From an uncultured Lachnospiraceae bacterium (GTDB taxonomy: Bacteria; Bacillota; Clostridia; Lachnospirales; Lachnospiraceae), in contig CADAHQ010000011.1 of the NCBI GenBank assembly GCA_902787715.1, positions 1 to 41,355 of the forward strand: 41,355 bases of DNA, in the 5' to 3' direction. Positions 1,575-41,139 of the stretch are shown here, piece by piece. The first letter of the stretch is position 1, and each line of letters begins with the position of its first letter. Under the pieces are notes generated by a model that ran no database searches, had not been told where the DNA came from, and saw nothing but the letters and a program-made list of their open reading frames with translations. The translations under genes and the position numbers were made by a program.

Positions 1575-4500
1575 TTACACCTCTCCTGCCGCAATCCGCA
1601 CACACTCGTAAGCGCCGTTGTAGTCGCCGTTTCGCTTCATGTCATTGATGCGGCGGCACATGTGAATGAACAGCTCCTTGTCCGCGAGCAGGCAGTCAAT
1701 CATATCGTTGGCCGACTCTTCGGTTGCACACTCAAACGTCCCGTCTCCGGCCTCCTGCGAACAGATGGCGCCGTAGACCTCGTGGCCGCCGATGTGCTTC
1801 ATGAACATCTTCGGAATCGGGTAATAGGCGAGCTCGCTCGGTTTTGTAATCAGGACGTCACACTCGGGCATCAGCAGATTGGTGGCGTAGACCGCCTTGA
1901 AGATGTCCGGATCACAGATGATTGTGACGCCGTCGGCATCTCTGTCGCGAAGCCCCTTCACGTACTCCGTAAGTCCATCGTAATCATCGGCAAATGCATG
2001 CACGGTAACATCGGTCAGCATCTTCTCAATCTTCTCGTAAACACCGGCGTGGTCGCCCGCGTTGATGAACACCGCTGCCTTTCCCTTCCTTACGTACGGA
2101 AGAAGATGCAAAAGCATGGCTTTGAACTGGTCAAAGCCCGCGCCGGCGCCTCCGACCGTCATCAGGAAACGCATCGGCGCTCCCTCCTCGGCTCTTTTGA
2201 TGCGCAGCGCGTTGTCCTCCTCGAGATTGACCAAAAGCTCATGGTCCACATACCGTCCGACCATCCGAAGCGCACTCTCGGGAATCCCCTGAAGGTGTTT
2301 CTTGGAGAAGCCGTGCATCATCTTATAACCGAGGTAGGCAAACGGCGTCTGCACGGTGTGCACCGCACCTTCGGACAGATGCAGGGCCATCGGCCAGTTG
2401 TCCGGAATCGCATTGACGACATGCGTCATCCCCGCATGCACCGCTGCCTGACTCGGCCAGACATGGGTTGCGATGTAGGGAACATCCTGCGGAAGCGGGG
2501 TCAAAAGCGGCGCCAAGAGCTCTGCATTTTTCTGGTCCTTGGCATTGTATGTAATCTTCCGGAAGCCCTCCTTGTTGAGCGGTTCCCAGACAAAACGGTT
2601 AAACAGTTTAGATTTTTGAGAGATTCGGGAAGCCAGGGAATACATGTTGTTCTGCTCGCGAATCATCTTGGAACCGGTGGCGTCAAAGCCCGCGAGGTCG
2701 AGCCAGTACGGCGTATACCCAAGCGAACGGGCAGCGGAAGCCATGGCGATACTGATCCGGTAGTGACCGAAGCCCATGCGGATATTGCCGACGACCAGCG
2801 CCTTTTCGGAGAGCTCCGCGGGCGTCTCTGAAAGCACAAGCTTCTTCACACCGATGCCGCTGAGCGCCGGAACCTCCTCCACGCCGTAGCAGTACTTCGT
2901 CTCCGAGTCGTCGCCGTATTTGTCCAGATATTTCTGTTTCTGCTTCTCCGCCTTTGCGATTGTCCCCCGGTCGATCCGGTTTCCGAAGATCACGCTTGTC
3001 TTGTCTCTTTGCGCCTCCTCATCCGTAGGCTTCGTTTTCTCGATGAGAGTGCCCTTCTCGTAATCGTAGCCGAAGAAGCGCTTGACGCCGTCCAGTTCGA
3101 ATGCAACAACGGCGAACCGGCCTTTGTTTCGGAAGCCGAACCGCCTTGCCCTGCGGAAGATTGCAAGCGCATCCTCGAGGACCGCCTTCTTCTCCTCATC
3201 ATACTCGCTGATCTTATCGGATGTCATCAAAAGAGAGCCGAACAGCGCATTCACCTTCGTGAGCGCCTTACGTCTGGCCGGCGACATCTGCATATTGTCA
3301 TCGCGCAACAGGAAGACATCGGGATCATTGAGGAAAACGTGACCGTTTAAGCAGCTGCGGAACAGCGTATTGCGAATCGTCACCTTCGTGGAAACCCTCT
3401 CCGGATGCATCGCCTTCATGTAAAATGCGTCGTCGAAGGACAGGGACACGTCCGGGCCGATCCGACAGTAATCAAATCTCTCAAAGCCGTTGGAGAGCGT
3501 CGCACCGCATCCGAGAATCAAGCGGTCGGCAAGCTCCTCCCGCAGGATTCCATAGGCAAATTCCGCCGTTTCACTCCGCGTCTTCCCCAAAAGCGGGCAC
3601 AGATTGACCGCGTAGAGGAAATCCAGTTTGAAGAAATCAAACCCAAGCTCTTTGTAAAAGCGAAGAACCCTGCGGACATACTCCACAGCCTCTTGGTTGT
3701 TCAGATCAAGCGGCATAAACCCGCTCCAGTTGGATCCGGCGTAAATCGGATTGCCGCCGGAATCCTTCGCAAGCCAGTCCGGATGCTCCGAAGCAAGCTT
3801 CGATTTCGTCTCCGCGACGAACGGCGAGAGCCAGATTCCCGCAAGCATGTTCTTTTCGTGGATTCGGTTGACGATGCCGCCGAGGCCGTTTGGGAATTTG
3901 CCGGAATCGATGTCAGTCCAGTCGCCGACATACGTCTCGAAGCCATCGTCAATCTGGAACAGCTCAAACCGCTCATCCGCGGCGTCCAGCGCCTCCGAAA
4001 TCACCTTCTCGTTGATGTTTTGATAGTGATTGTACCAGGACGTGTAACCGAACAGCTTCCGGTCGGTCCGCGGCGTAAAGCGCTCGAAGTAAGCCTTCCC
4101 GTCACGCCACGAAACGTAATCGAACACGACGAAACTCTCACCGGCACGCAGCACACGCCCGTCGATATCGCTCTGTAAAAGAATTCTGCCGCTACTCTCC
4201 TCAAACCAGATCAACAGGTAGGCGTTCCGATAATTCAGGTTGCCGAAGAAAATCGGCTTCTCCCCGGTCACGTACGCAAAATCAAACCCGACCGGCGTCT
4301 TTCTTCGATTCTTCCAAAACGCCTGGGAGCCGTATGCCGGAAAATGATACCGCTCCGTGAGTGCCTTCGGCAGTTTGCTCAGGTCATTGAGGGTCTCCCC
4401 GAGGGCAAATTCCCTTGTCTCGGTCCAGGACTGGTAACCATTCGCCATGATTTTGCAATCCGGGGCATATTCGTACTGCAGCAATATTTCGGCATTGCAA

Positions 4501-4634
4501 AGGACCACATCCTTAAGCGCTGTCACCGTGACGGTGCGCTGCCCTGCGGTCTTGACGGTTTCCACCCGGATGTTCCCGTCGCCGGAGGATACGGTGAACT
4601 TCCGGCCTTCCGAAAGATACGTAAACTTAACCAT
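1575..4634 (-). CDS. GH36 alpha-galactosidase fused to a GT-B glycosyltransferase-like domain
   Basis: The 1019-residue protein has two parts. Residues about 1-530 form a GH36 (clan GH-D) glycosidase: N-terminal beta domain with NGYQSW near 65-70, barrel motifs FQIDDGFE (226-233) and GIWLSPFVAE (266-275), the nucleophile region FFKLDFLYA with Asp338, and the acid/base region RIGPDVS with Asp395. Residues about 610-1019 resemble MurG/MGDG-synthase-like GT-B enzymes: a glycine-rich N-lobe start VVGNIRMGFGHYR (614-626), a second-lobe start FLMTVGGAGAGFDQF (823-837), and a donor-site-like CDVLITKPSELAYYPIP (925-941). No signal peptide is seen, so it should act in the cytoplasm on sugar brought in by the adjacent permease. 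The start is set by AAGGAGGAGCGG before ATG and an 8-bp overlap with the permease gene. Hydrolysis of alpha-galactosides is family knowledge; transferase activity of the second half is inference. Confidence 0.85.
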   Translation of the reverse strand: MVKFTYLSEGRKFTVSSGDGNIRVETVKTAGQRTVTVTALKDVVLCNAEILLQYEYAPDCKIMANGYQSWTETREFALGETLNDLSKLPKALTERYHFPAYGSQAFWKNRRKTPVGFDFAYVTGEKPIFFGNLNYRNAYLLIWFEESSGRILLQSDIDGRVLRAGESFVVFDYVSWRDGKAYFERFTPRTDRKLFGYTSWYNHYQNINEKVISEALDAADERFELFQIDDGFETYVGDWTDIDSGKFPNGLGGIVNRIHEKNMLAGIWLSPFVAETKSKLASEHPDWLAKDSGGNPIYAGSNWSGFMPLDLNNQEAVEYVRRVLRFYKELGFDFFKLDFLYAVNLCPLLGKTRSETAEFAYGILREELADRLILGCGATLSNGFERFDYCRIGPDVSLSFDDAFYMKAMHPERVSTKVTIRNTLFRSCLNGHVFLNDPDVFLLRDDNMQMSPARRKALTKVNALFGSLLMTSDKISEYDEEKKAVLEDALAIFRRARRFGFRNKGRFAVVAFELDGVKRFFGYDYEKGTLIEKTKPTDEEAQRDKTSVIFGNRIDRGTIAKAEKQKQKYLDKYGDDSETKYCYGVEEVPALSGIGVKKLVLSETPAELSEKALVVGNIRMGFGHYRISIAMASAARSLGYTPYWLDLAGFDATGSKMIREQNNMYSLASRISQKSKLFNRFVWEPLNKEGFRKITYNAKDQKNAELLAPLLTPLPQDVPYIATHVWPSQAAVHAGMTHVVNAIPDNWPMALHLSEGAVHTVQTPFAYLGYKMMHGFSKKHLQGIPESALRMVGRYVDHELLVNLEEDNALRIKRAEEGAPMRFLMTVGGAGAGFDQFKAMLLHLLPYVRKGKAAVFINAGDHAGVYEKIEKMLTDVTVHAFADDYDGLTEYVKGLRDRDADGVTIICDPDIFKAVYATNLLMPECDVLITKPSELAYYPIPKMFMKHIGGHEVYGAICSQEAGDGTFECATEESANDMIDCLLADKELFIHMCRRINDMKRNGDYNGAYECVRIAAGEV

Positions 4635-29747: not shown

Positions 29748-31712
29748 TCATTTTTCCCGCTTCTTTTTAGGTTTCTTTGCTTTCGCCGAGCGGTTCTGGG
29801 CAAATACCACGGCGTTCAGAATGCCGACAGCCAGCCACCCCACCATACAAAACAGCAGCGGAAGCTGCCCTCTCGTCAGATACATGGATCCCCAGATGAC
29901 CGCACAGACGATATTTAAAGCCGTTGTAATCAGGCTGATAAACGCATATTTGCGGGCTTTCTCGATATCGCCGGCCTTCGCAAAATCGAACCAGAACAGT
30001 AAGCCGTCGCCCTCATTTTCCGCGCCGTAGGAAGCGCCGTGGCGATCAAGAATCCCCGCGCTGATGGCGAGGCCCATTCCGCCGGTCTCCGAATCGGCCT
30101 TCTTCTTTTCGGTCTCAAACATCGGCGTCCAGATTTCCGCAAGCTCCGCCTCCGAGAGAGGCGCGGTCTTGTTCCATACAGAGAACTTCTCATTCTCGGT
30201 CTTCACAACAATCGTGCTACCCGGCTCTCCGTAGCGGACGGCGTTGGCGATGAGATTGTCAATCACCATCCCGATAAGCGCCGGATCGCAGTTCGGCCGC
30301 TCATAGGTCTTCACAGAGAAGTCAACTGTCATCCCCTTCTGTGCAATCAAATCGCTGTAGGAGGCAAGCGAATCCTCCGCCAGCTTGTTCCAGTCGGTCC
30401 TCTCCGGCCGGAGTGTCACGGACTCGTCCATGACACGGGTGTAGGTAAGCATCTGCTCAAGCTTTGCATTCATGGAGTCGCTCTCGCGCAAAAGAACCCC
30501 CAGATAATGCTCCTGCTTCTCGGGCTTCGCTCCGGTCGCCAGGTATTCCGCGGTGTTTCGAACAACTGCCACCGGCGTCTTCAGCTCGTGAGCCATGGCG
30601 TTGATGAACGTATCGCGCAGCTTCTTCAGTTCCCTGCGTCTGCGGTCGACGCCCCACCAAACCTGCATTGCCATGATGGCAAACCCCTGGATGCACAATG
30701 CGAATGCAAGGATTTTCCGGCACGCCTTGCGCCCGATGATGGTTCCCACATCAATCAGCACATAGTAGGCAACCGAAGCTTCGTCTTTGCTTCCGTAAGA
30801 AATCTCTCCGTACCGGTCTTGGTATATTTCATTGATACGCATATGCCAGTTGGCATTCTCAGAAAAATAATCGTCGGAGCCGAATTCCCACGTCTTTGTG
30901 ATATAACTTCCATCCTCCGGCGGAAAATACTCCCCAAAAGCCATTCCGACAACTTCTTCGTTCATCTCCGACCGCTGCAGGAAATAAAACATGCTTCCCT
31001 CCGAATCGGTGTTCCTCGCAGCGCGAACGACATCGTCCTCCCGGTACTCCTTCGACTTCAATTCATATACGCTCTCGCCCTGGGAAATGCGAAGCATCGT
31101 AGGAATAAAGTGCCCCTCCGACGTCTCATGCCCACGCATTTCATCGATAGAAAACGTTTCAAAGCCCATCGGCTCCAGAAACGCGATCAGTTCGTCCTTG
31201 TCAAAATATTTCGTCAGATCCCACGTGGTCTTCGCGGTTTTTTCCAGCACCTCGGAATCATACCGGTCATCCGAAGCGATGCCTTCCGGATAATCGGAAA
31301 CCGTAAGGAGGCATATCGTTCCGTACACAAAGAGACCATCCCCCTTAATCGGAAAATCCGGATCGCGAACAATGACGTCGTAGTACTTGTTATAGTACTC
31401 ATTGTCAAAATAATCACAATAGCATGCGACGCTGAGGCAATCCTCAAAGTCCTTGTCATACTGCCAAAACGGTTCTCCCAGAAACAATTCCTGGATTAAA
31501 AAGGTGAACCGCAGCAGTTGATCCGCGCTTTCTTTCCGTTGGCCCTTCGCCTCCGACGCCGCAAAGTCCATCCGGCTCTCAACCTCCAGCTTGACGCTTT
31601 TCTTTGTGTCGTTGTAGATGACCTGCGCGACGATTGCAATCACAATCAGTGTGACGATTTCAGTCAGCAGAAACCACCGGATTCTCTTCCAAACACTTCT
31701 TTTCTTTCTCAT
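29748..31712 (-). CDS. Sensor histidine kinase with two membrane segments after its ATPase domain
   Basis: The 654-residue kinase starts MRKKRSVWKRIRW, with AAGGTGGGG six bases upstream of ATG. It has a membrane segment (13-32), a long outer domain (33-330), a second membrane segment (333-353), phospho-acceptor FINAMAHELKTP with His375, N box NLIANAVRYGEPG (487-499) and G box ETGGMGLAISAGI (542-554). After the ATPase domain come two further strong membrane segments (about 589-609 and 617-638) and a basic tail, which is rare. The sensed ligand is unknown and the outer domain is not one I recognise. The partner regulator is 84 bases upstream. Confidence 0.9.
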   Translation of the reverse strand: MRKKRSVWKRIRWFLLTEIVTLIVIAIVAQVIYNDTKKSVKLEVESRMDFAASEAKGQRKESADQLLRFTFLIQELFLGEPFWQYDKDFEDCLSVACYCDYFDNEYYNKYYDVIVRDPDFPIKGDGLFVYGTICLLTVSDYPEGIASDDRYDSEVLEKTAKTTWDLTKYFDKDELIAFLEPMGFETFSIDEMRGHETSEGHFIPTMLRISQGESVYELKSKEYREDDVVRAARNTDSEGSMFYFLQRSEMNEEVVGMAFGEYFPPEDGSYITKTWEFGSDDYFSENANWHMRINEIYQDRYGEISYGSKDEASVAYYVLIDVGTIIGRKACRKILAFALCIQGFAIMAMQVWWGVDRRRRELKKLRDTFINAMAHELKTPVAVVRNTAEYLATGAKPEKQEHYLGVLLRESDSMNAKLEQMLTYTRVMDESVTLRPERTDWNKLAEDSLASYSDLIAQKGMTVDFSVKTYERPNCDPALIGMVIDNLIANAVRYGEPGSTIVVKTENEKFSVWNKTAPLSEAELAEIWTPMFETEKKKADSETGGMGLAISAGILDRHGASYGAENEGDGLLFWFDFAKAGDIEKARKYAFISLITTALNIVCAVIWGSMYLTRGQLPLLFCMVGWLAVGILNAVVFAQNRSAKAKKPKKKREK

Positions 31713-31796
31713 ACACATCCCCACCTTCGCTGCGTTTTCGGCCGAATTCTTTCCGAAACGGCCGGTTATCGTCCGACTTCCCCACGGGAAAGCCGG

Positions 31797-32465
31797 TTAC
31801 GGAACAAAGCGATACCCTTCCTTGATCACGGTCTCAATGTGGCTGCCATAGCGGCCGAGAGCCTTGCGAAGCTTCTTGATGTGCGTATCCACCACGCGGT
31901 CGCTTCCCTCGTACTCAAGCCCCCAGATGCGGTCCAAGATCTGCTCGCGGGTAAGCACTCTTCCGCGGTTTGCGATGAAGTACCGCAGTAACCGCAGATC
32001 AAGAGCCTGCAGCTCCACCGGTGCGCCGTCAACCAGCACTGCATTTTTCGCAAAATCCACGCTCAGCCCGTCCGCGGTAAACACCTCCGCCGCCATGGCA
32101 CGGCCGGCTGCACGCTCCAGGATGGCGCGGCATTTGGCGACTAAGACAGGCAGCGAGAAGGGCTTTACAATGTACTCATCCGCGCCCAGGGAGTAGCCGA
32201 GGAGCTGATCCTCCTCCTGCACCCGCGCCGTCAGGAAAAGAATCGGCACGTCCTCCTTCGCGCGAATGCGCCGGCACACCTCAAAGCCGTTCATCCGCGG
32301 CATCATCACGTCCAAAAGCACCAGCCGGTAGTCGTTCCCGCAAAATGCCTCCCAGGCCTGCATACCGTCCGCCACCGCGTCCACCGTAAAACCGTTGTCC
32401 GTGAGGTAGTCGGTCATGACCTCCCGCAGATTTTCATTGTCTTCCGCAAGCAAAATCCGACACAT
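31797..32465 (-). CDS. OmpR/PhoB-type response regulator
   Basis: The 222-residue protein has a receiver domain (AEDNE, phospho-acceptor Asp52 in RLVLLDVMMP, Lys in YIVKPFSL) and a winged-helix output domain (LTREQILDRIWG, DRVVDTHIKKLRKALG). The start at 32465 has AAGGAG upstream. It is the first gene of the kinase pair. Target genes are not known; the 11-bp-periodic repeat array at 37732-37780 would be a suitable type of site. Confidence 0.93.
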   Translation of the reverse strand: MCRILLAEDNENLREVMTDYLTDNGFTVDAVADGMQAWEAFCGNDYRLVLLDVMMPRMNGFEVCRRIRAKEDVPILFLTARVQEEDQLLGYSLGADEYIVKPFSLPVLVAKCRAILERAAGRAMAAEVFTADGLSVDFAKNAVLVDGAPVELQALDLRLLRYFIANRGRVLTREQILDRIWGLEYEGSDRVVDTHIKKLRKALGRYGSHIETVIKEGYRFVP

Positions 32466-32544
32466 CGTCGTTCTCCTTCGGGTTCGTTTTGTTCCTTTGC
32501 AGCACCAACATACCACGGGGATGTGTACTCCGTATGTCAGCCGC

Positions 32545-32616
32545 AAAAAAAATAAAAAAGGGGCCGGTCCGTTGTTGTCACCCCCGACCGGGGTGACAAA
32601 CCGGGACTGCCCCTTT
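32545..32616 (-). terminator. Double-stem terminator of the polyamine operon
   Basis: An outer stem (AAAGGGGC / GCCCCTTT, continued by CCGGTCC pairing) encloses an inner perfect 10-bp stem (TTGTCACCCC / GGGGTGACAA). The minus strand then runs into TTTTTTATTTTTTTT. Confidence 0.88.
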
Positions 32617-32624
32617 ACGTCATC

Positions 32625-33674
32625 TTACTGTGTCGCAACAACCTTGATCCACAGCTCGTTGAGCTTCTTGCGGATCACTTCGTTGTCGTGGAAAATCTCA
32701 TCCTTTTCCTGGATGTGCGGCAGATATGCCTCGTTGTCGCCGAACTCACCGTCCTCGGCGGAGAGCTCTGCAAGCACCGTCTTGTTGGGCGAAGCGTAGC
32801 CAACCGTCGTGGAGCCGTCCAGGCACTGGTCATAGTTGAGCATGAAGTTGATGAACTTGTTGGCGAGGGAAGGATTTTCCGCATTCTTCGGAATAACCAT
32901 GGAATCATACCATACGTTGGTTCCGCAGGAAGGCGTGAAGTAGCCCATGTTCGGGGTCTCGCTCAGGATGTCGGTAGCGTCACCGGAGTACACGATGGCA
33001 AGATCCTTGCGGCCGGCCTTCATGTTGTCAATAACCTCGTCGGTCACGTAGATGGGCTGGGTCGCCTTGTTCATCTCGATGAGCCAGTTGTAGGCTTCCA
33101 TAATCTCGTCCTCGTTCTCCGTGTTGCAGGAGTAGCCGAGCTGCTTGAGGGCGATCATGAAACCGTCGCGTGCCGAGTCATACATGTACACGCGGCCCTT
33201 GTACTTGGGATCCTTGAAGATGCCGAAGCCCTCAGCCTCGAGGTCTGCATAATCAACGTTGTCCTTGTTGTAAACGATGCCGACGGTGCCCCAGAAGTAG
33301 GGAATCGAGTAATCGTTGTTCGGGTCGAAGGAAAGGTTCTTCACTTCGTCCGCCAGATTGCCGATGTTGGTGATGGCATCCTTGTCAAGCTTCTGCAGAT
33401 AGTCTTCCTTCATGAGACGCTCAATGGTGTAGTCGGAAGGAATCAGCACGTCGTATTTGTCGCCGGCCTGAAGCTTCGTGTACATCGCCTCGTTGGAGTC
33501 GAAGTTCTCCACGATTACTTCGCAGTTAAATTCCTTCTCAAAATCGGAGATGACGTCCTCGCCGAGATACTCTCCGGGCAGGAACAGTTTCAGTTTCTCC
33601 TTCTTCTTGCCGCAGCCGGTGAGAGCCAGCACGCACACTGCAAGAAGCATCATTGTTACAAGCGCTTTCTTCAT
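32625..33674 (-). CDS. potD: PotD, spermidine/putrescine ABC transporter substrate-binding lipoprotein
   Basis: The 349-residue protein begins MKKALVTMMLLAVCVLALTGC, a lipoprotein signal with the lipidated Cys21. The mature part matches polyamine-binding PotD/PotF: YDVLIPSDYTIERLM, YFWGTVGIVYNK and MVIPKNAENPSLANKFINF. It captures polyamine outside the membrane and delivers it to PotBC. GGAGGTAAGAAAAAG precedes ATG. It is the last gene of the operon, 115 bases after potC; a short CGGGC/GCCCG stem in that gap may stabilise the potD transcript. Confidence 0.93.
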   Translation of the reverse strand: MKKALVTMMLLAVCVLALTGCGKKKEKLKLFLPGEYLGEDVISDFEKEFNCEVIVENFDSNEAMYTKLQAGDKYDVLIPSDYTIERLMKEDYLQKLDKDAITNIGNLADEVKNLSFDPNNDYSIPYFWGTVGIVYNKDNVDYADLEAEGFGIFKDPKYKGRVYMYDSARDGFMIALKQLGYSCNTENEDEIMEAYNWLIEMNKATQPIYVTDEVIDNMKAGRKDLAIVYSGDATDILSETPNMGYFTPSCGTNVWYDSMVIPKNAENPSLANKFINFMLNYDQCLDGSTTVGYASPNKTVLAELSAEDGEFGDNEAYLPHIQEKDEIFHDNEVIRKKLNELWIKVVATQ

Positions 33675-33789
33675 TCTTTTTCTTACCTCCGTTACTATGA
33701 ACAACGGGCTTTGCCCGGTTCTTACATAAAACTCAACCCTGCCGCAGAAATCTCTCTGCCGATGCAGAAATCCGCGGCGTTTACGCAGT

Positions 33790-34608
33790 TCACTCCGCCA
33801 TCTCGCGAAGGCGCTTCTCCTCGCGCTCGCGTCTGCGGGCGCCGATTGCGGAGACGATATTGTACACGATTAAGCCCATGGTAATCAGGCCGATTACCAC
33901 CGTCGAGAGTGCGTTGATGGAAGGATTGGTTCTCTTGCGCATCGTGTACACGACGATGGAAATGTTGTTCACGCCGTTGCCGGTCGCAAAGTAGGAAATG
34001 ACGAAATCGTCAAAGGACATCGTAAAGGCAATCAGGGCACCCGAGATGATACCGGGCATAACCTGCGGGATGATGACCTGCACAAGGGCCCGGATGGGCG
34101 TTGCGCCGAGGTCCATAGCTGCCTCCGCAAGGTTCGGGTCGAGGGAGCGAAGCTTCGGCATGATGCTCAGAATCACGTACGGAATACAGAACATGATGTG
34201 TGCTAACAGAAGCGTCACAAAGCCCTTCTCGATATGCAGTGCGCTGAAGAACATCAAAAGTCCGATGGCCGTCACGATATCGGGGTTCATCATCGGAAGC
34301 TCGTTGACCTGCTCGACGCAGCTTTTGAGAATCCGGTTCGACTTTGAAAGGCCGATGGCCGTCAGCGTGCCGACAATGGTGGACACCACGGTCGCGATAA
34401 CGGCAATCACCACCGTGTAGATGATACCGTTGATCATCGTGCGGTCACTCGCCATCTTCGAAAACCAGCGGGTGGAAAAGCCCGCGAATTTCGTTAAGGA
34501 TTTGCTGTCGTTAAACGAGAAAATTACGGTGTAAACAATCGGCGCGTAGAGGAAGATTACCAAAAGAATCATCAAAATCGTGCCGAAGATGCGTTTCTTC
34601 TGTTTCAT
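33790..34608 (-). CDS. potC: PotC, spermidine/putrescine ABC transporter permease
   Basis: The 272-residue protein has six membrane segments and the coupling-loop motif EAAMDLGATPIRALVQVIIPQVMPGI typical of this permease type. It heterodimerises with PotB. Its ATG overlaps the potB stop as ATGA. Confidence 0.93.
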   Translation of the reverse strand: MKQKKRIFGTILMILLVIFLYAPIVYTVIFSFNDSKSLTKFAGFSTRWFSKMASDRTMINGIIYTVVIAVIATVVSTIVGTLTAIGLSKSNRILKSCVEQVNELPMMNPDIVTAIGLLMFFSALHIEKGFVTLLLAHIMFCIPYVILSIMPKLRSLDPNLAEAAMDLGATPIRALVQVIIPQVMPGIISGALIAFTMSFDDFVISYFATGNGVNNISIVVYTMRKRTNPSINALSTVVIGLITMGLIVYNIVSAIGARRREREEKRLREMAE

Positions 34609-35441
34609 GCCCGCGCCTCCCCCTTCTCCGTCACATCCACCTTCTTGGTGAGATACATGGAGAGAATGATGATAACCGCCATAATCATGGAGATGGCACT
34701 ACCGAAGTTCCAGTCGCCCGAGGACAGGAAATACTGCTCGATCACGTTACCGACCAGCATGTACTGACCGCCGCCGAGCATGTTGGGAATGCAGAAGCTC
34801 GACACCGCAGGCAGGAACACGAGGGTGATACCGCTGATGATACCCGGCAGGGACAGCGGAAGCGTCACCCGCAGGAAGCTCTGGAACTTGTTGGCGCCGA
34901 GGTCGCTGGCCGCCTCCAGAAGACTTCCGTCCATCTTTGTAAGCGAGGTGTAAATCTGCAGAATCATGAACGGCAGGAAGTTGTAAACCATGCCGAGGAT
35001 GACGGCAAATTCCGTATACATCATCTTGTACGGCCCGAGTCCGATCCAGCCGAGGACGGTGTTGATGATACCGTCGTCCTGCAGGATACCGATCCAGGCG
35101 TAGGTGCGCACTAAGAGGTTAATCCACGTCGGGAACGTGATAATAAGAACCCAGTGCATCTTAAAGGTCTCGCTGCTCTTGGCGATGTAATACGCCGGAA
35201 AATACCCGAGCAGCAGACACGCAATCGTGGTAATCGCCGCAACCTTCAACGACCGCAGAAGCACCTTGAGGAACAACCGGTCACTGAAGAAGCGCGCAAA
35301 ATTCTCCAAAGTGAATTTGGTGGTAACGACATCGTTTCCCTTCGTCGTGAACGCATACAAAACGATCAAAAGCATCGGCGCCACAATCAGAATGAGCGCC
35401 CAGACGATATAGGGATATGTCATTCTTCGAAACTGTTTCAT
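34605..35441 (-). CDS. potB: PotB, spermidine/putrescine ABC transporter permease
   Basis: The 278-residue protein has six membrane segments and the coupling-loop sequence EAASDLGANKFQSFLRVTLPLSLPGI. AAGGGG precedes ATG. It begins 16 bases after the potA stop. Confidence 0.93.
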   Translation of the reverse strand: MKQFRRMTYPYIVWALILIVAPMLLIVLYAFTTKGNDVVTTKFTLENFARFFSDRLFLKVLLRSLKVAAITTIACLLLGYFPAYYIAKSSETFKMHWVLIITFPTWINLLVRTYAWIGILQDDGIINTVLGWIGLGPYKMMYTEFAVILGMVYNFLPFMILQIYTSLTKMDGSLLEAASDLGANKFQSFLRVTLPLSLPGIISGITLVFLPAVSSFCIPNMLGGGQYMLVGNVIEQYFLSSGDWNFGSAISMIMAVIIILSMYLTKKVDVTEKGEARA

Positions 35442-35457: not shown

Positions 35458-37065
35458 TCAGCCGATCTGCGACTTCTCCATAATATGAAGATCCTCAGGA
35501 TCGAAGGTCAGACCCACAACCGCGCCGACCTCGGTCTCCTTGGTGGTATCCACACGATACTCGTAACCGCGCGTCTTGAAGGTTACGGGGTACGTTCCGG
35601 GAGCAACCGCCGCCGGGTCGAAATCGTACTCGACATCGACGATCTCCACGGGGTTTCCGTCCTCCAGCTCAAAGGCCTGTGCATTGGCCCAGATCTTGAG
35701 GTCGGTCTCGAGAGCCACGCTCTCCGCGATTTCGTCCGCCTTCTTGAAGAAGTTCACGGCGTAGATTTCCTCTCCGTGCTCCTCCGCAACGAAGCGGTTC
35801 GGCGCCTGAACAATCATGTCCGCCGTAACGCTGGTTCCCGCTGCGGTGTGGAACGTCACCGGATAGCGTCCGTTCTCCCGGCTCAGCTCGTAGTCGAGCT
35901 TCGTGATGGAGATACGCTCATCACTCTCGGGATCCCACGCCTGGGCGTCGGCACGGTCGATGATGAAGGCGTCCGCAGACTCCGGATGTTCCATCATCTC
36001 CTCGATATCATCCGCATCGAGATAGAAGTCGTTGGCACTCATCATCTCGCCGGCGTCTTTGTTAATCACAGGCTTGTCCTCGGACACAACCATCTCCACG
36101 GTGATGCTGGTACCGGCCTTGGTCTCGACTACGGTCTCGTAATGAACGCCCTTGAAAAGCGTGGAGCGCACGATTCCGCGGAGTTTTCCGGACCGCACCG
36201 GAACGATGTCCAGGTCCTCGGGGCGGATGACCACATCCACCTTCTCATTTTTGGCAAATCCGGCGTCCACACATTCAAACTGCCGGTCTTCAAACATAAC
36301 CTTGTGGTCCTCAAGCATCACACCGTCGACGATGTTGCTCTCGCCGATGAAGTTTGCAACATAGCGGTTGACGGGCTCGTTGTAAATGTCCGTGGGCGAA
36401 CCGATCTGCTGGATGTTGCCGTCCTTCATGATGACGATCTTGTCGGACATGGTCAGGGCCTCTTCCTGATCGTGAGTGACGAAGATGAAGGTGATGCCGA
36501 CCTCCTTCTGAATCTTCTTCAACTCGCGCTGCATGCCCTTGCGAAGCTTCGCGTCCAGAGCGCCGAGAGGCTCGTCGAGAAGAAGCACCTTGGGCTCATT
36601 GACAAGGGCGCGGGCAATGGCGACACGCTGCTGCTGACCGCCGGACATCTCGTGAACGGCGCGCTTGCTGAAGTCCTCGAGGCCCACGAGCTTAAGCATA
36701 CGCATGACCTTCTGATAAATGATATCCTTCGGCTCCTTCTTGATCTTGAGGCCGAAAGCAACGTTGTCAAACACATTCATGTGCGGGAACAGCGCGTACT
36801 TCTGGAACACGGTGTTGAGGTCCCGCTTGTAGGGCGGCAGGTTCGAAATCTCCTCGCCGTCGAAGATGACCTCGCCCTCATCGGGCTGCAGAAAACCGCC
36901 GAGGATACGGAGAAGCGTCGTCTTACCGCATCCGGAAGGTCCTAAGAGCGTCACGAACTCGTTCTCGTAAATGTCGAGATTGATGCCCTTCAAAACCAGC
37001 TGTCCGTCGAATTTCTTTACGATGTTCTTAAACTGAATCAATTTCTTCTGCTGTTGTTCACTCAT
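35458..37065 (-). CDS. potA: PotA-like polyamine transporter ATPase with tandem Ig-like insertion
   Basis: The 535-residue protein is far longer than usual PotA (about 350-370). Residues 1-315 are a standard ATPase: Walker [10 protein letters not shown] (42-50), signature [15 protein letters not shown] (140-154), Walker [13 protein letters not shown] (160-171), switch THDQEEA, then the start of the TOBE domain ([19 protein letters not shown]). At about 316-498 two tandem ~92-residue repeats appear (each opening AGTS[IV]T and closing G[RT]YPVTF[HK]T). The TOBE domain then resumes at [11 protein letters not shown]. The repeats look like Ig-like domains of Gram-positive surface proteins, yet this subunit is cytoplasmic. 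GGAGG precedes ATG. It follows the regulator by 15 bases. Confidence 0.92.
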
Positions 37066-37080
37066 GGGAATGTCCTCCGT

Positions 37081-37614
37081 TTAGAAAATCGGCGGTGTGG
37101 AAATCCACAGCACTTTCGCCGTCTTATTGCCTTTGTTGCTGATGCAGTGGTCTTCCTTCCCTTTTACATAGAAGGTTTCGCCCCTGCGGACGGCATTTTG
37201 CTTGCCGCCGTACTCAAGGATTACTGTCCCGTCCAGCACGTAGCCGAACTCCTCGCCGTTGTGCGGGTGAACGGTAAACGAGCTGCTCTTCGCGGGAATC
37301 TCCAGTAAAATCGGCTCCATCTCATTCTTCTGCGTGTTCGGAACAATCCAGTGGATTGCGTAATCCTCCCGCTCATCGACGAAGAAATCGCCCTTGCGGA
37401 ACACAATCTGCTCCTGCTGCTCCTCCCCGAAAAATTCACCCAGCGAACTTCCTAACGCCTCCAGTATGTCGGTGAGTGTCGCGATGGAAGGCGATGTCAG
37501 ATTGCGCTCCACCTGCGAGAGGAAGCCCTTCGTAAGCTCACTCCGCGACGCCAGCTCCTCGAGTGTTAAGCTCTGCCGGATTCGCATTTGCTTTAACCGA
37601 TGTCCGATGTCCAT
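37081..37614 (-). CDS. XRE-cupin (PuuR-like) transcriptional regulator
   Basis: The 177-residue protein has an N-terminal helix-turn-helix (LKQMRIRQSLTLEELASRS, then TKGFLSQVERNLTSPSIATL) and a C-terminal cupin (HPHNGEEFGYVLDGTVILEY, then GETFYVKGKEDHCISN). This two-domain type controls polyamine genes (PuuR-like). It is the first gene of the operon and probably senses polyamine. The start at 37614 has GGGGG ten bases upstream. Binding to its own leader repeats is inferred. Confidence 0.92.
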   Translation of the reverse strand: MDIGHRLKQMRIRQSLTLEELASRSELTKGFLSQVERNLTSPSIATLTDILEALGSSLGEFFGEEQQEQIVFRKGDFFVDEREDYAIHWIVPNTQKNEMEPILLEIPAKSSSFTVHPHNGEEFGYVLDGTVILEYGGKQNAVRRGETFYVKGKEDHCISNKGNKTAKVLWISTPPIF

Positions 37615-37637
37615 TTCATGCCCCCGGTGGTTTGATA

Positions 37638-37667
37638 TACTAAACAAAAAGATTATTTTTACTAAAC
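37638..37667. promoter_or_regulatory. Direct-repeat operator in the polyamine operon leader
   Basis: TACTAAAC occurs at 37638-37645 and again at 37660-37667, 22 bases apart (two helical turns), between the promoter and the regulator start codon. This is a likely autoregulatory site. Confidence 0.5.
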
Positions 37668-37686
37668 TTTTCCGCAGACTGTTACC

Positions 37687-37714
37687 ATTATACATGGTTT
37701 GCCTGCAAATGCAA
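37687..37714 (-). promoter_or_regulatory. Promoter of the polyamine operon
   Basis: Minus-strand TTGCAT (37709-37714), 16 bases, TATAAT (37687-37692). Confidence 0.65.
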
Positions 37715-37806: not shown

Positions 37807-37853
37807 GGGCTCAATCCATTTCGGAAACAAATTTCATTTTGGGGGAAATACAC

Positions 37854-39473
37854 ATGAAACGGTTTTTATTACTTCTGGTAACACTGGTCTTTGCGGTTGC
37901 ATTTGCCGCCTGCAAGGACAAAACAAACAACACGACACAGCCGACGCCCACCGGCGCCGCATCCACACCGACCGACGCGGTCACGCCCACCGACACGGTT
38001 ACGCCGACGCCCACCGAAGCGCCGACGAAAATCGTCGTAAGCGACCTGGTTAAGGAATACGCGATTCCGAAGATTGAATCTTCCATCGGTGAGACCGTTA
38101 CCCACCTTCGTCAGACGATGTGGCGTAAATCGGAGGAGACGAAGGAATTTGACGCAGTTATTAAGGAGACGGACGCTGCGTTTTTCCATGCTCCGGAAAG
38201 CTTCCAGGGAGAAACCTACGGCTGCGAGAATTGCGGCTGCGAAGTCCGGGACTATGACGACGAGTTGAACGTGCGTAAGATTCGGTATCTCACCGCCGAC
38301 CTGCAAGTTATTCTGAAGACCATCTACCGCACGCCCTATGGTATCTGTACCGTAACCGGCGACGACAAGGTGTACACCGCACACTGCGAAGTCCTCTCGC
38401 CGGAAACCGGCCGGGTGACGCTGTACCTCGACAACGACCGGGCCACCTTCTATGATTATGACGCTGCAGGCCGCCTCACGGGCGAGCGGGTGTATGTTGT
38501 GGACACCCTGGTAAAGCAGACAGTATTCACCTACGACGCAAACGGCAACGTGGTTTCACAGCAGATTTTCGAGCCCGCGTCCTACTGCTATCCAACGGCC
38601 ATCCGGGAGTACGCTTTCTCCTATGAGAAGGATGCCTCCGGCCGCCTGGGAACCTGGTCCGTAACGTACCGGGAAGATGACATGGAGCAGGGTTACAAAT
38701 ACAACCTTCACTACTATAAGGACGGCACCGTTGCCCTTTCCACGGCAAATGCAGACACCCAGGGCGAATACGAAGCATACATATTTATCCCGGGCAAAGA
38801 GCTCTCCGAAAAGCTTCTTTCGGCATCGAGTCTCGGTTCTCCCTTCGGCACCGAGAAGGAGCCGGCGCCTGCGCTGGATTTCTACTTCACGAAATGTTTG
38901 ATGGAGTATTTTCCGAAGATTGGCACGAATTCCGAGCTGACCGACGAGTGCGACCTGGCAGAAGTAAAATACACCTATTCCGCACTGTACAACACCATTC
39001 CCGAAGGCTGCACGCGATTCCTCTGCAAGACATCGATGACTGCGGATGAACTTAACGTCGAAGAGCTTTCGCCCGGGCAGCTGATCAGCGGTGATATCGT
39101 CGGACAGATTGCCGACAACCGGCTGACCAACTATTCCTGCTACGGCAACATCTTCACTTTCGAATATGACAACCTGGGAAGACTGACCCGCTTTGAGGCG
39201 CTGTCCTCGTATTCCGCGGAAATCACGCTGGCTTATTATGAAGACGGTGATAACCTCCAAATCCGGCGAACCCATGAAGTAAACGGAGCGCAAACTCCCG
39301 CCAGCTCTAAGCCCGGTTACAGTAAAGTTACTTACACACTGAAAAAACATCAAGGGAGAATATCATCTAGCTTTAATGGTGTCCTCGCCGGCCGTTACGA
39401 CGAAAGCATCGGCGACCATATCACGCTGGAATTCGGTATTCAGTGCTCATGGCTTGATTCCGAAAAGAAATAA
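37854..39473 (+). CDS. Surface lipoprotein with Pro/Thr linker and YD-repeat-like domain
   Basis: The 539-residue protein begins MKRFLLLLVTLVFAVAFAAC, a lipoprotein signal with Cys20. A Pro/Thr-rich linker (about 28-57) leads to a soluble domain. Segments such as NGNVVSQQIF, AGRLTGERVYV and NLGRLTRFEA resemble YD/RHS-like strands. SYEKDASGRLGTWSVT, LHYYKDGTVALS and AYIFIPGKELSEKLL match corresponding parts of the next gene's product, so the two are paralogs. GGGGGAAATACAC precedes ATG. Function is unknown; an envelope location is well supported. Confidence 0.8.
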   Translation: MKRFLLLLVTLVFAVAFAACKDKTNNTTQPTPTGAASTPTDAVTPTDTVTPTPTEAPTKIVVSDLVKEYAIPKIESSIGETVTHLRQTMWRKSEETKEFDAVIKETDAAFFHAPESFQGETYGCENCGCEVRDYDDELNVRKIRYLTADLQVILKTIYRTPYGICTVTGDDKVYTAHCEVLSPETGRVTLYLDNDRATFYDYDAAGRLTGERVYVVDTLVKQTVFTYDANGNVVSQQIFEPASYCYPTAIREYAFSYEKDASGRLGTWSVTYREDDMEQGYKYNLHYYKDGTVALSTANADTQGEYEAYIFIPGKELSEKLLSASSLGSPFGTEKEPAPALDFYFTKCLMEYFPKIGTNSELTDECDLAEVKYTYSALYNTIPEGCTRFLCKTSMTADELNVEELSPGQLISGDIVGQIADNRLTNYSCYGNIFTFEYDNLGRLTRFEALSSYSAEITLAYYEDGDNLQIRRTHEVNGAQTPASSKPGYSKVTYTLKKHQGRISSSFNGVLAGRYDESIGDHITLEFGIQCSWLDSEKK

Positions 39474-39510
39474 AAAAACAAAAGGAAAGAAAAAACACAC
39501 GGAGGCTCTC

Positions 39511-41139
39511 ATGGACGAGGCAAAGACCGGGAAGAAATCCCTGAAGAAAAGACTGATTATCATCGGAATCATCGTTGTTTTTCTGATTCTGCTGATTCCG
39601 TTCCCGTTCCGCTACAAGGACGGCGGAAGCGTGGAATACAAGGCCATCCTGTACTCCTACAAGCGGTACAACGCCATTATGTCGCCGACCTACCGCGACG
39701 GCATGGCGTACGAAACCACGCTGCGGGGCTCCACCCTCTCCATCCTCGGAATCTCTGTCTACGACGGTACCTTTACAGATGTCGCGGAAGAAGGACGTCC
39801 CATCAAACAGAGTGAATTCGATTCCGGTCGCGTGACACCGACCCCGACTCTGACTCCCGCTGCAACCGCCACGCCCACGTCCACGCCGAGCCCCACGCCT
39901 TCCCCGGAACCGACAAGCACGCCGATTCCCACAAGCACTCCGGTCCCGGATGTTCCCGCACCGCAGGAGGACTCCTACGCCTACCGCGGGCAGTACGACT
40001 ACAGCAGGCCACAGGAGCGTTATTCGCAAATTCCGAGCCTCGAACAGTTTACCTACAACCACAAGGTTCAATATTTCGATTCAAACTCGGAGTTGATCCG
40101 GGAACGCTATCTCCTTGATGATAAGGAAATAATGTTCATCGATTATGTCGACTCGCATTATTACACCGAGAAAATCCAGGGCTCGGAGGAGCATTATACC
40201 GAATGCTACCGGCCCTATGCAGAAGACCCGAAACCTCTCGAAGAATACACTCTGGACGAACATGACAATGCAATCGGGATCAAGGGGAATTCTTCGAAGT
40301 CCATATCCTACCACAAGGGTGACGACGGTCGATTGGACGAATGGACTCTGACGGAGAACGGCATTTCACAGACCTTTGGCGTCAGATACTACTCTGACGG
40401 TGTCGTTATGTTCTACCCGAAGGAACTGACCGAACGCTCCGACGACCCCTATGACACCGTCCAAGCGGTAGTCTTTCTCCCCGGCGAAACCTTCCGGGCC
40501 GAACTTCTCGGAACGCAGGGTCTGAACCTGATGGATGTTGCATGGGTTGAATATCTTGATTATGTAACGCCTCCGGTCACCTACGGCTTTTATTCCTTCT
40601 TCTTTGAAAGCAATACATCATCTTCGGAGGACGGCTCGAAATCGCCGACCGACAAGCTGCTGTATCTCGGCCAGGTTAACAAGGCGGATTTGCTGCAGGA
40701 CAAATGGGTTTACCCGGAGGACGGGCATCTCGACAACAACCATACCGAATACCGCTATGACGGCGACAAACTGATTTATTACTGGTACGGTGACGGCGGC
40801 GGACATTCCAGCGAAAGCTATAAATACGACAAAAACGGCCGCGTAATCGAAAGCGTTTTTGACGGCGACATGGGCCGTTCCAACACCTGCCGCTATACCT
40901 ACAACGATGCCGGCAAGATAGTTTCCTCCACGAAAGAATACGAATGGTATCACGGAGAAGGTTACGTGAAGGGCTCCGTAACCTACAAGTATTCCTACGA
41001 CGGAAACGGCAACGGCATTCTCACCGGCGGAAAATGCGAAGGCAAAGAGACAAAATCCTACAGCTACGACGACAGACCGGATGAGGTTACGACCTACACT
41101 TACCGCCTGGCACCCTACAAGGGAAACGGGACGGATTGA
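39511..41139 (+). CDS. Membrane-anchored paralog with Pro/Thr linker and YD-repeat-like domain
   Basis: The 542-residue protein starts MDEAKTGKKSLKKR, then one membrane segment (LIIIGIIVVFLILLIPF) and an outer region containing a Thr/Pro-rich linker (about 109-150, rich in TPT and TSTP). The C-terminal part shows YD-like strands (EYRYDGDKLIYYWYG, SYKYDKNGRVIESVF, RYTYNDAGKIVSS). SYHKGDDGRLDEWTLT and VRYYSDGVV align with the gene before it. It is anchored by a transmembrane helix rather than by lipid. CGGAGGCTCTC precedes ATG; the gap to the previous gene is 37 bases, so they are probably co-transcribed. Function is unknown. Confidence 0.8.
   Translation: MDEAKTGKKSLKKRLIIIGIIVVFLILLIPFPFRYKDGGSVEYKAILYSYKRYNAIMSPTYRDGMAYETTLRGSTLSILGISVYDGTFTDVAEEGRPIKQSEFDSGRVTPTPTLTPAATATPTSTPSPTPSPEPTSTPIPTSTPVPDVPAPQEDSYAYRGQYDYSRPQERYSQIPSLEQFTYNHKVQYFDSNSELIRERYLLDDKEIMFIDYVDSHYYTEKIQGSEEHYTECYRPYAEDPKPLEEYTLDEHDNAIGIKGNSSKSISYHKGDDGRLDEWTLTENGISQTFGVRYYSDGVVMFYPKELTERSDDPYDTVQAVVFLPGETFRAELLGTQGLNLMDVAWVEYLDYVTPPVTYGFYSFFFESNTSSSEDGSKSPTDKLLYLGQVNKADLLQDKWVYPEDGHLDNNHTEYRYDGDKLIYYWYGDGGGHSSESYKYDKNGRVIESVFDGDMGRSNTCRYTYNDAGKIVSSTKEYEWYHGEGYVKGSVTYKYSYDGNGNGILTGGKCEGKETKSYSYDDRPDEVTTYTYRLAPYKGNGTD

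Follow-up and report, generated by a model that had tools for sequence, protein, structure and literature searches.

Polyamine transport genes of the ABC type lie in the window analysed here, the whole stretch of 41,355 nucleotides from one contig of an uncultured Lachnospiraceae bacterium. The gene order is potR-potA-potB-potC-potD, and a response regulator and a histidine kinase are encoded next to the operon (Table 1). The potA product is the unusual member of this set. With 389.8 bits it passes the TIGR01187 cut-off (355.6 bits) and with 558.9 bits that of NF043075 (550 bits), and it misses the PotA model NF006987 at 440.6 against 482 bits.

Table 1. Features of the pot locus, in window coordinates; residue numbers refer to the window PotA.
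Feature	Position	Strand	Basis or remark
XRE-cupin regulator (PuuR-like, potR)	37081..37695	-	directly upstream of potA
potA with insert, 535 aa, ATG start	35458..37065	-	open reading frame and NCBIfam scores
ABC ATPase core, residues 8-243	36337..37044	-	Pfam and 61-sequence alignment
Regulatory domain and TOBE up to the insert, residues 244-316, last strand HYETVVET	36118..36336	-	TOBE_2 match; predicted strand 309-316
Inserted repeat 1, residues 317-408	35842..36117	-	hhalign, AlphaFold2, profile search
Inserted repeat 2, residues 409-498, with helix E448-S449...T454-D455-L456-K457-x-W459	35572..35841	-	hhalign, AlphaFold2, unit comparison
Resumed TOBE, residues 499-532	35470..35571	-	weak match to TOBE_2 57-75 (E 0.12)
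potB, permease	34605..35441	-	
potC, permease	33790..34608	-	
potD, polyamine-binding lipoprotein	32625..33704	-	several pocket positions kept, some not
Response regulator	31797..32546	-	next to the operon, after potD
Histidine kinase	29748..31724	-	next to the operon

A first-pass annotation, made from the DNA letters alone, had described an intact ATPase core and a tandem pair of repeats inside an otherwise intact PotA and TOBE domain, and both descriptions hold. Pfam ABC_tran covers residues 25-167, and in an alignment of 61 sequences the key catalytic residues of the Walker A, Q-loop, LSGGQ, Walker B and H-loop motifs vary little or not at all. The TOBE_2 domain (PF08402) reaches 37.4 bits against a gathering score of 21 and is split by the insert: model positions 1-51 correspond to residues 278-328, and positions 57-75 correspond weakly to the C-terminal end of the protein (E 0.12, with the end scanned separately). 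This resumed end is the part that ordinary PotA matches in profile scans. Ordinary PotA of the fetched loci has 345-381 residues and a short turn at the insertion site. The exceptions to this length among fetched loci without the insert are L151 (472 aa) and L045-L048 (477-480 aa). The latter four (L045, L046, L047 and L048, from genomes G030, G011, G015 and G029) represent another unusual shape within the same family: by eye, their C-terminal extension resembles a second regulatory/TOBE domain, and a Pfam scan of L045, L046 and L048 called the first TOBE and no second.

The insert of the window PotA comprises about 182 residues (317-498) and lies between two strands of a TOBE beta-hairpin; of the earlier estimate of residues 316-498, the end was right and the start is corrected to 317. 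Its length is 174-182 residues across 114 rows of long PotA. This set excludes proteins of 500 aa or less, the duplicates L011 and L018, L046 and L047 (which have the other architecture) and the frameshifted L131; L073 and L100 have identical core columns within it, and because some genes were reached twice (e.g., L002/L078 and L007/L079), 114 counts rows and not species. The first-pass annotation had called for the two repeats to be aligned and their structure predicted, and both analyses agree with its reading. Profiles built from the 114 rows (hhalign kept 72 for unit 1) align repeat 1 with repeat 2 over 85 columns with a probability of 99.6, an E-value of 5.7e-25 and 34% identity, so that the repeats are homologous. 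AlphaFold2 folds both units confidently, with a mean pLDDT of 87.5 for the whole PotA and of 89.2 (pTM 0.77) for residues 325-509 alone; the full model has a pTM of 0.63, so that the position of the units relative to the core is tentative.

In these models each unit has several strands with two helices in its middle, and predicted strands succeed each other in putative pairs (309-316/320-328, 399-407/412-419 and 490-498/501-507). Read in this way, the insert would amount to exactly two repeat periods, with the cut falling in the turn that separates the last two strands, and the TOBE strands at both of its ends may replace repeat strands. On this anatomy, a donor repeat would have been cut in the turn before its last strand and exactly two periods inserted. 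The TOBE strand YETVVET would pair with GTSITV, and the last repeat strand YPVTFKT with the TOBE strand YEYRVDTT; such pairing would leave the hairpin register intact.

Where the repeats come from is indicated by their relatives. Among the open reading frames searched, a profile of the unit finds 41 domains at E < 0.01, of which three look like chance (in L187, on the plus strand of L237 and on the minus strand of L234), and L188 repeats L180. The best domains match over most of the unit, with E-values of 1.4e-17 (L234), 1.1e-15 (L235), 4.5e-12 (L238) and 5.3e-12 (L233). The relatives were drawn from genomes of the order of Eggerthia catenaformis and of a phylum sample, and they are either long LPXTG proteins with many copies or small signal-peptide proteins with one unit and a C-terminal transmembrane segment, the signal peptides and transmembrane segments being mostly judged by eye. 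Most belong to Erysipelotrichales (L233, L234-L237 and L238-L242), and L180 comes from another sampled genome. The Pfam LPXTG anchor scores above its cut-off in L233 and just below it in L238, and the anchor of L180 was recognised by eye. In the six surface relatives scanned, no family at its cut-off covers the repeats, save a marginal MG4 in L240 (24.8 against 24.7, with no single stretch passing). These matches to LPXTG and signal-peptide/transmembrane proteins confirm the earlier suggestion that the units are kin to repeats of Gram-positive surface proteins. They also bear on the idea that the repeats arose by internal duplication of the TOBE hairpin, with nothing imported from outside. The flanking TOBE strands do resemble, by eye, the last two strands of the repeat, but within each unit those two are separated by additional strands and two helices, and the unit matches surface repeats over most of its length; we reject such a self-duplication as very improbable. 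The small one-unit proteins with a putative signal peptide and a C-terminal transmembrane segment are those of L234, L235, L236, L241, L242 and L237; some Erysipelotrichales genomes encode more than one of them, and that of L237 adjoins, by eye, a histidine-kinase-like open reading frame.

The label "Ig-like", given to the units at the outset, is in part borne out. No Pfam or NCBIfam model in the copies searched covers the unit; the window units match none of the Pfam Ig families even at E 10, and single units do not reach the Pfam gathering score of bacterial Ig-like families (Big_1, Big_3 and others). Big_3 appears at E 0.036 in 1 of 36 PotA units, and Big_1 (E 0.0009) and Invasin_D3 (E 0.0005) appear once each among 24 mixed units. 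DRTGG and Ribophorin_II_2nd also gave matches, which in the scan of the window units lie below cut-off. Among PDB profiles, the best match is 2kpn, the NMR structure of a Big_3 (PF07523) Ig-like domain, at a non-significant E of 0.09, and two designed Ig domains match weakly (E 0.4 and 0.84). Foldseek searches of the insert against PDB and viral models give no match at E < 0.001; the best E is 0.028, and SlpX S-layer, ZmpB Int, Big_3 and Rib domains are mixed with unrelated matches, with 2kpn at rank 7 (probability 0.66, E 0.07, likewise non-significant). The PotA unit differs from Big_3 in its two helices between strands. The beta-rich models and 2kpn as best PDB profile match speak for an Ig-like nature, and the lack of a significant structural or PDB match and of any Pfam Ig family at E 10 speaks against it; we regard it as probable, not proven.

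The insert recurs well beyond the window. It is present whole in 88 of 392 sampled genomes of the window's order (95 genomes matched, five of them with the ordinary TOBE end alone and two, G317 and G352, partially), and these 88 belong to family codes f11 and f17, which account for 80, and to the window's own f1 (8). A phylum sample has it in 3 of 398 genomes, the window's own included, and in the order of Eggerthia at least 76 of 118 sampled genomes carry it, at 77 places, among the matches listed. Among the best 80 of 154 relatives, 55 of the 79 loci kept have the insert; these 79 include L080 and L115, cut by contig ends, and the frameshifted L131. Named carriers in this set include Anaerotignum lactatifermentans, Tyzzerella sp. 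An114, Faecalicatena contorta, Oscillibacter sp. MSJ-31, Merdibacter massiliensis, Eggerthia catenaformis, Faecalicoccus pleomorphus and Anaerorhabdus furcosa. The distribution is patchy in Lachnospiraceae and extends to Anaerotignaceae, Oscillospiraceae and Erysipelotrichales. The first-pass annotation had left room for a standard PotA feature of the order that was already described. The insert is not standard, being carried for example by 12 of the 22 genomes of the window's genus, and the open-access literature, searched by titles and beginnings of abstracts, gave no description of such an insert in PotA. Among the matches listed, contig ends and L131 apart, no PotA has one or three units. 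Genomes G847 and G327 have two potA copies each. In the window's own genome and 60 relatives, the unit occurs in PotA only, save a marginal match in G038 (E 0.005), and no donor was seen there. In the Holdemania filiformis record L131 (5001-5677), potA is frameshifted inside the insert, with units 1 and 2 in different frames, which may be a sequencing error.

The operon around the insert is conserved as well. When the flanks of long-form loci were searched for homologues of seven window genes, potB and potC matches were found in 55 of 55 loci and a potD match in 51 of 55. In the long-form operons of L096, L106 and L110, potC and potD apparently form one fused open reading frame. To judge the substrate, we followed the residues with which E. 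coli PotD contacts spermidine through 49 long-form PotD proteins (48 of the 51 loci with a potD match, plus the window). Kept positions are E36 (48), Y37 (49), S83 (49), Y85 (49), E171 (as D, 49), W255 (43), D257 (48) and Y293 (47), and changed ones are W34 (W in 29, P in 15), D168 (S in 48) and W229 (Y in 49); the counterparts of D168 and W229 also differ in most of 22 short-form PotD proteins. This pattern speaks for a polyamine-type substrate of the long-form transporter without proving it, and the substrate is not certain because the counterparts of W34, D168 and W229 are changed.

Comparisons of the window with other genomes of its genus gave a dN/dS of 0.050-0.175 for unit 1 (from 9 of 10 pairs) and of 0.025-0.106 for unit 2 (from 8 of 10). 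The other 3 of the 20 unit comparisons have no defined dS, and in many pairs dS approaches saturation. Judged by these substitution ratios, the insert is under purifying selection. Mean conservation falls from 0.88 in the ATPase core to 0.75 in the regulatory domain, and it is 0.69 in each of the units and 0.70 in the TOBE end; the units are conserved about as well as the TOBE end, which means that the insert evolves in the manner of the regulatory domain's last part. An assembly chimaera of a surface-protein gene and potA might be suspected in a draft genome of 54 contigs, but the same insert stands in an open frame in many genomes, including those of the isolates Anaerotignum lactatifermentans DSM 14214, Eggerthia catenaformis and Faecalicoccus pleomorphus. 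This recurrence, together with the conserved operon and purifying selection, refutes an assembly artefact.

The phylogeny of the transporter is consistent with one acquisition. In a tree of the PotA core without the insert columns, which took 64 long forms from the 114 rows along with 33 short ones, the two forms lie on either side of one branch (SH-aLRT 99), corresponding to one change of insert state in 97 rows, and a PotB tree of 78 rows gives the same split, 56 against 22 (SH-aLRT 98); these supports are quick-search SH-aLRT values, with long-branch warnings among the short forms. Erysipelotrichaceae and Lachnospiraceae occur together in a supported group of 28 long forms, and this suggests horizontal transfer of long-form PotA between families. 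By best tblastn segment, identity to the window in long-form loci is 53-92% for PotB, 53-94% for PotC and 43-83% for PotD, compared with 34-49%, 30-47% and 32-41% in short-form loci. PotB is just 37-44% identical to the window's in eight genomes that belong to the same genus and have another PotA. Since PotB, PotC and PotD diverge according to the form of PotA, the insert marks a distinct transporter lineage and not a lone gene change. A single insertion would have occurred in the ancestor of the long-form lineage and spread later, partly between families, and we consider this account of the origin and identity of the insert very probable. In addition, two genomes of the genus that have the short PotA encode, divergently upstream of potR, a response regulator with 82-83% identity to that of the window. 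Operons may have been exchanged beside a kept two-component system, which we take as a lead only because the response-regulator arrangement differs.

What the insert does is approached through its surface. Its net charge has a median of -23 in the 114 rows (range -29 to -13). The charge per residue is -0.105 and -0.120 in the PotA units against -0.069 in surface units (31 units, 11 loci), and the acidity is partly common to the latter. Compared with the 31 surface units, near-invariant PotA-specific positions are D350 (100%) and D353 (99%) and, in unit 2, E448 (96%), S449 (99%), T454 (94%), D455 (97%), K457 (90%) and W459 (100%). We propose, as the least certain part of our reading, that the acidic units extend the regulatory domain in the cytosol and would set the transport rate by reading the internal level of polyamine or another cation. 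Polyamine bound to the predicted acidic/Trp surface of unit 2 would hold the regulatory domains in a state of slowed ATP hydrolysis, giving feedback. The ATPase of E. coli PotA has been reported to be feedback-inhibited by spermidine through the C-terminal domain, and our search of the literature on PotA regulation did not find this inhibition. That the insert is a regulatory module of some kind has slightly better than even chances. The best explanation overall, a capture of repeats that became a regulatory extension for polyamine feedback, falls somewhat short of even, and polyamine as the ligand of the units is clearly less likely than not.

The acidity and the conserved residues also fit a protein-docking or a dimer interface. 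As a docking platform, the units would receive a cytosolic protein that acts in trans to inhibit the transporter or to recruit it, in the way that EIIA-Glc acts on MalK, with the ES..L.TDLK.W helix of unit 2 as the contact. In agreement with this, a single helix in one of the units carries PotA-specific residues that hardly vary, and the unit has relatives in surface proteins, among which protein binding is common, but no partner is known, and we think docking unlikely. A passive role, in which the units sense nothing and lend stability to the PotA homodimer or to its association with the diverged PotB and PotC, would suit the inheritance of the whole operon with a distinct PotB and PotC and the near-constant length of the insert. 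However, the charged PotA-specific residues are strongly conserved, and in solved transporters of the PotABC type the regulatory domains are far from the permease; we therefore put this role, too, at about one chance in four. In our judgement, regulation is the likeliest role and polyamine feedback its leading form, with docking and dimer support as close rivals.

Known systems share parts of this design. The window PotA resembles E. coli PotA (PDB 8y5f and 8zx1) in its NBD and regulatory domain (Foldseek 50-51% identity over 316-318 columns, E 1e-40 to 9e-38); E. coli PotA of PotABC has 378 aa and no insert. Passages of the cryo-EM study of E. coli PotABC name the regulatory domain and give it no role (PMC11414716). 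Solved importer ATPase chains listed have about 340-410 aa compared with 535 aa in the window PotA, and are therefore too short for such an insert. MalK and other importer ATPases have in common with the window PotA the core and the OB/TOBE fold of the C-terminal regulatory domain, through which MalK is regulated. The surface repeats of LPXTG and signal-peptide/transmembrane proteins contain a unit homologous to those of PotA but are judged extracellular from their signal peptide or anchor, occur in many tandem copies or one, and are not fused to an ATPase. Wzt of O-antigen exporters likewise bears a beta-sandwich domain on a cytosolic ABC ATPase, but there the domain is C-terminal and glycan-binding and the transporter is an exporter; the Wzt C-terminal domain PF14524 was not found in the window units up to E 10 and appeared in 1 of 36 units at E 0.025.

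New here is the way in which the regulatory domain of an importer ATPase has been enlarged, with a domain that we have not seen reported in such a place; a literature search on surface-type domains in cytosolic proteins found nothing on point. Ig-like repeats of surface proteins are usually seen as building blocks for the cell exterior. One repeat family is found both in surface proteins and fixed within a cytosolic motor ATPase, with which it is inherited across several families, and this makes a testable case of domain capture across the membrane. In its fullest form, in which a surface-adhesin-type Ig-like pair was captured and became an intracellular polyamine sensor of a separately evolving, horizontally traded transporter class of gut and rumen Bacillota, the proposal is an unlikely one. 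The insert would serve as a marker for a distinct class of polyamine importers in gut bacteria, and removal of this natural insert would reveal what the TOBE hairpin of importer ATPases controls. The repeat family itself has no model in the Pfam and NCBIfam copies searched.

Elsewhere in the window, two large, neighbouring open reading frames (37839-39473 and 39376-41139, both plus strand) have proline/threonine-rich linkers and, by eye, YD/RHS-like repeats, and Pfam RHS_repeat matches the former and not the latter. A 1019-aa protein encoded at 1575-4634 (minus strand) has Melibiase-type and DUF6937/DUF6938 domains.
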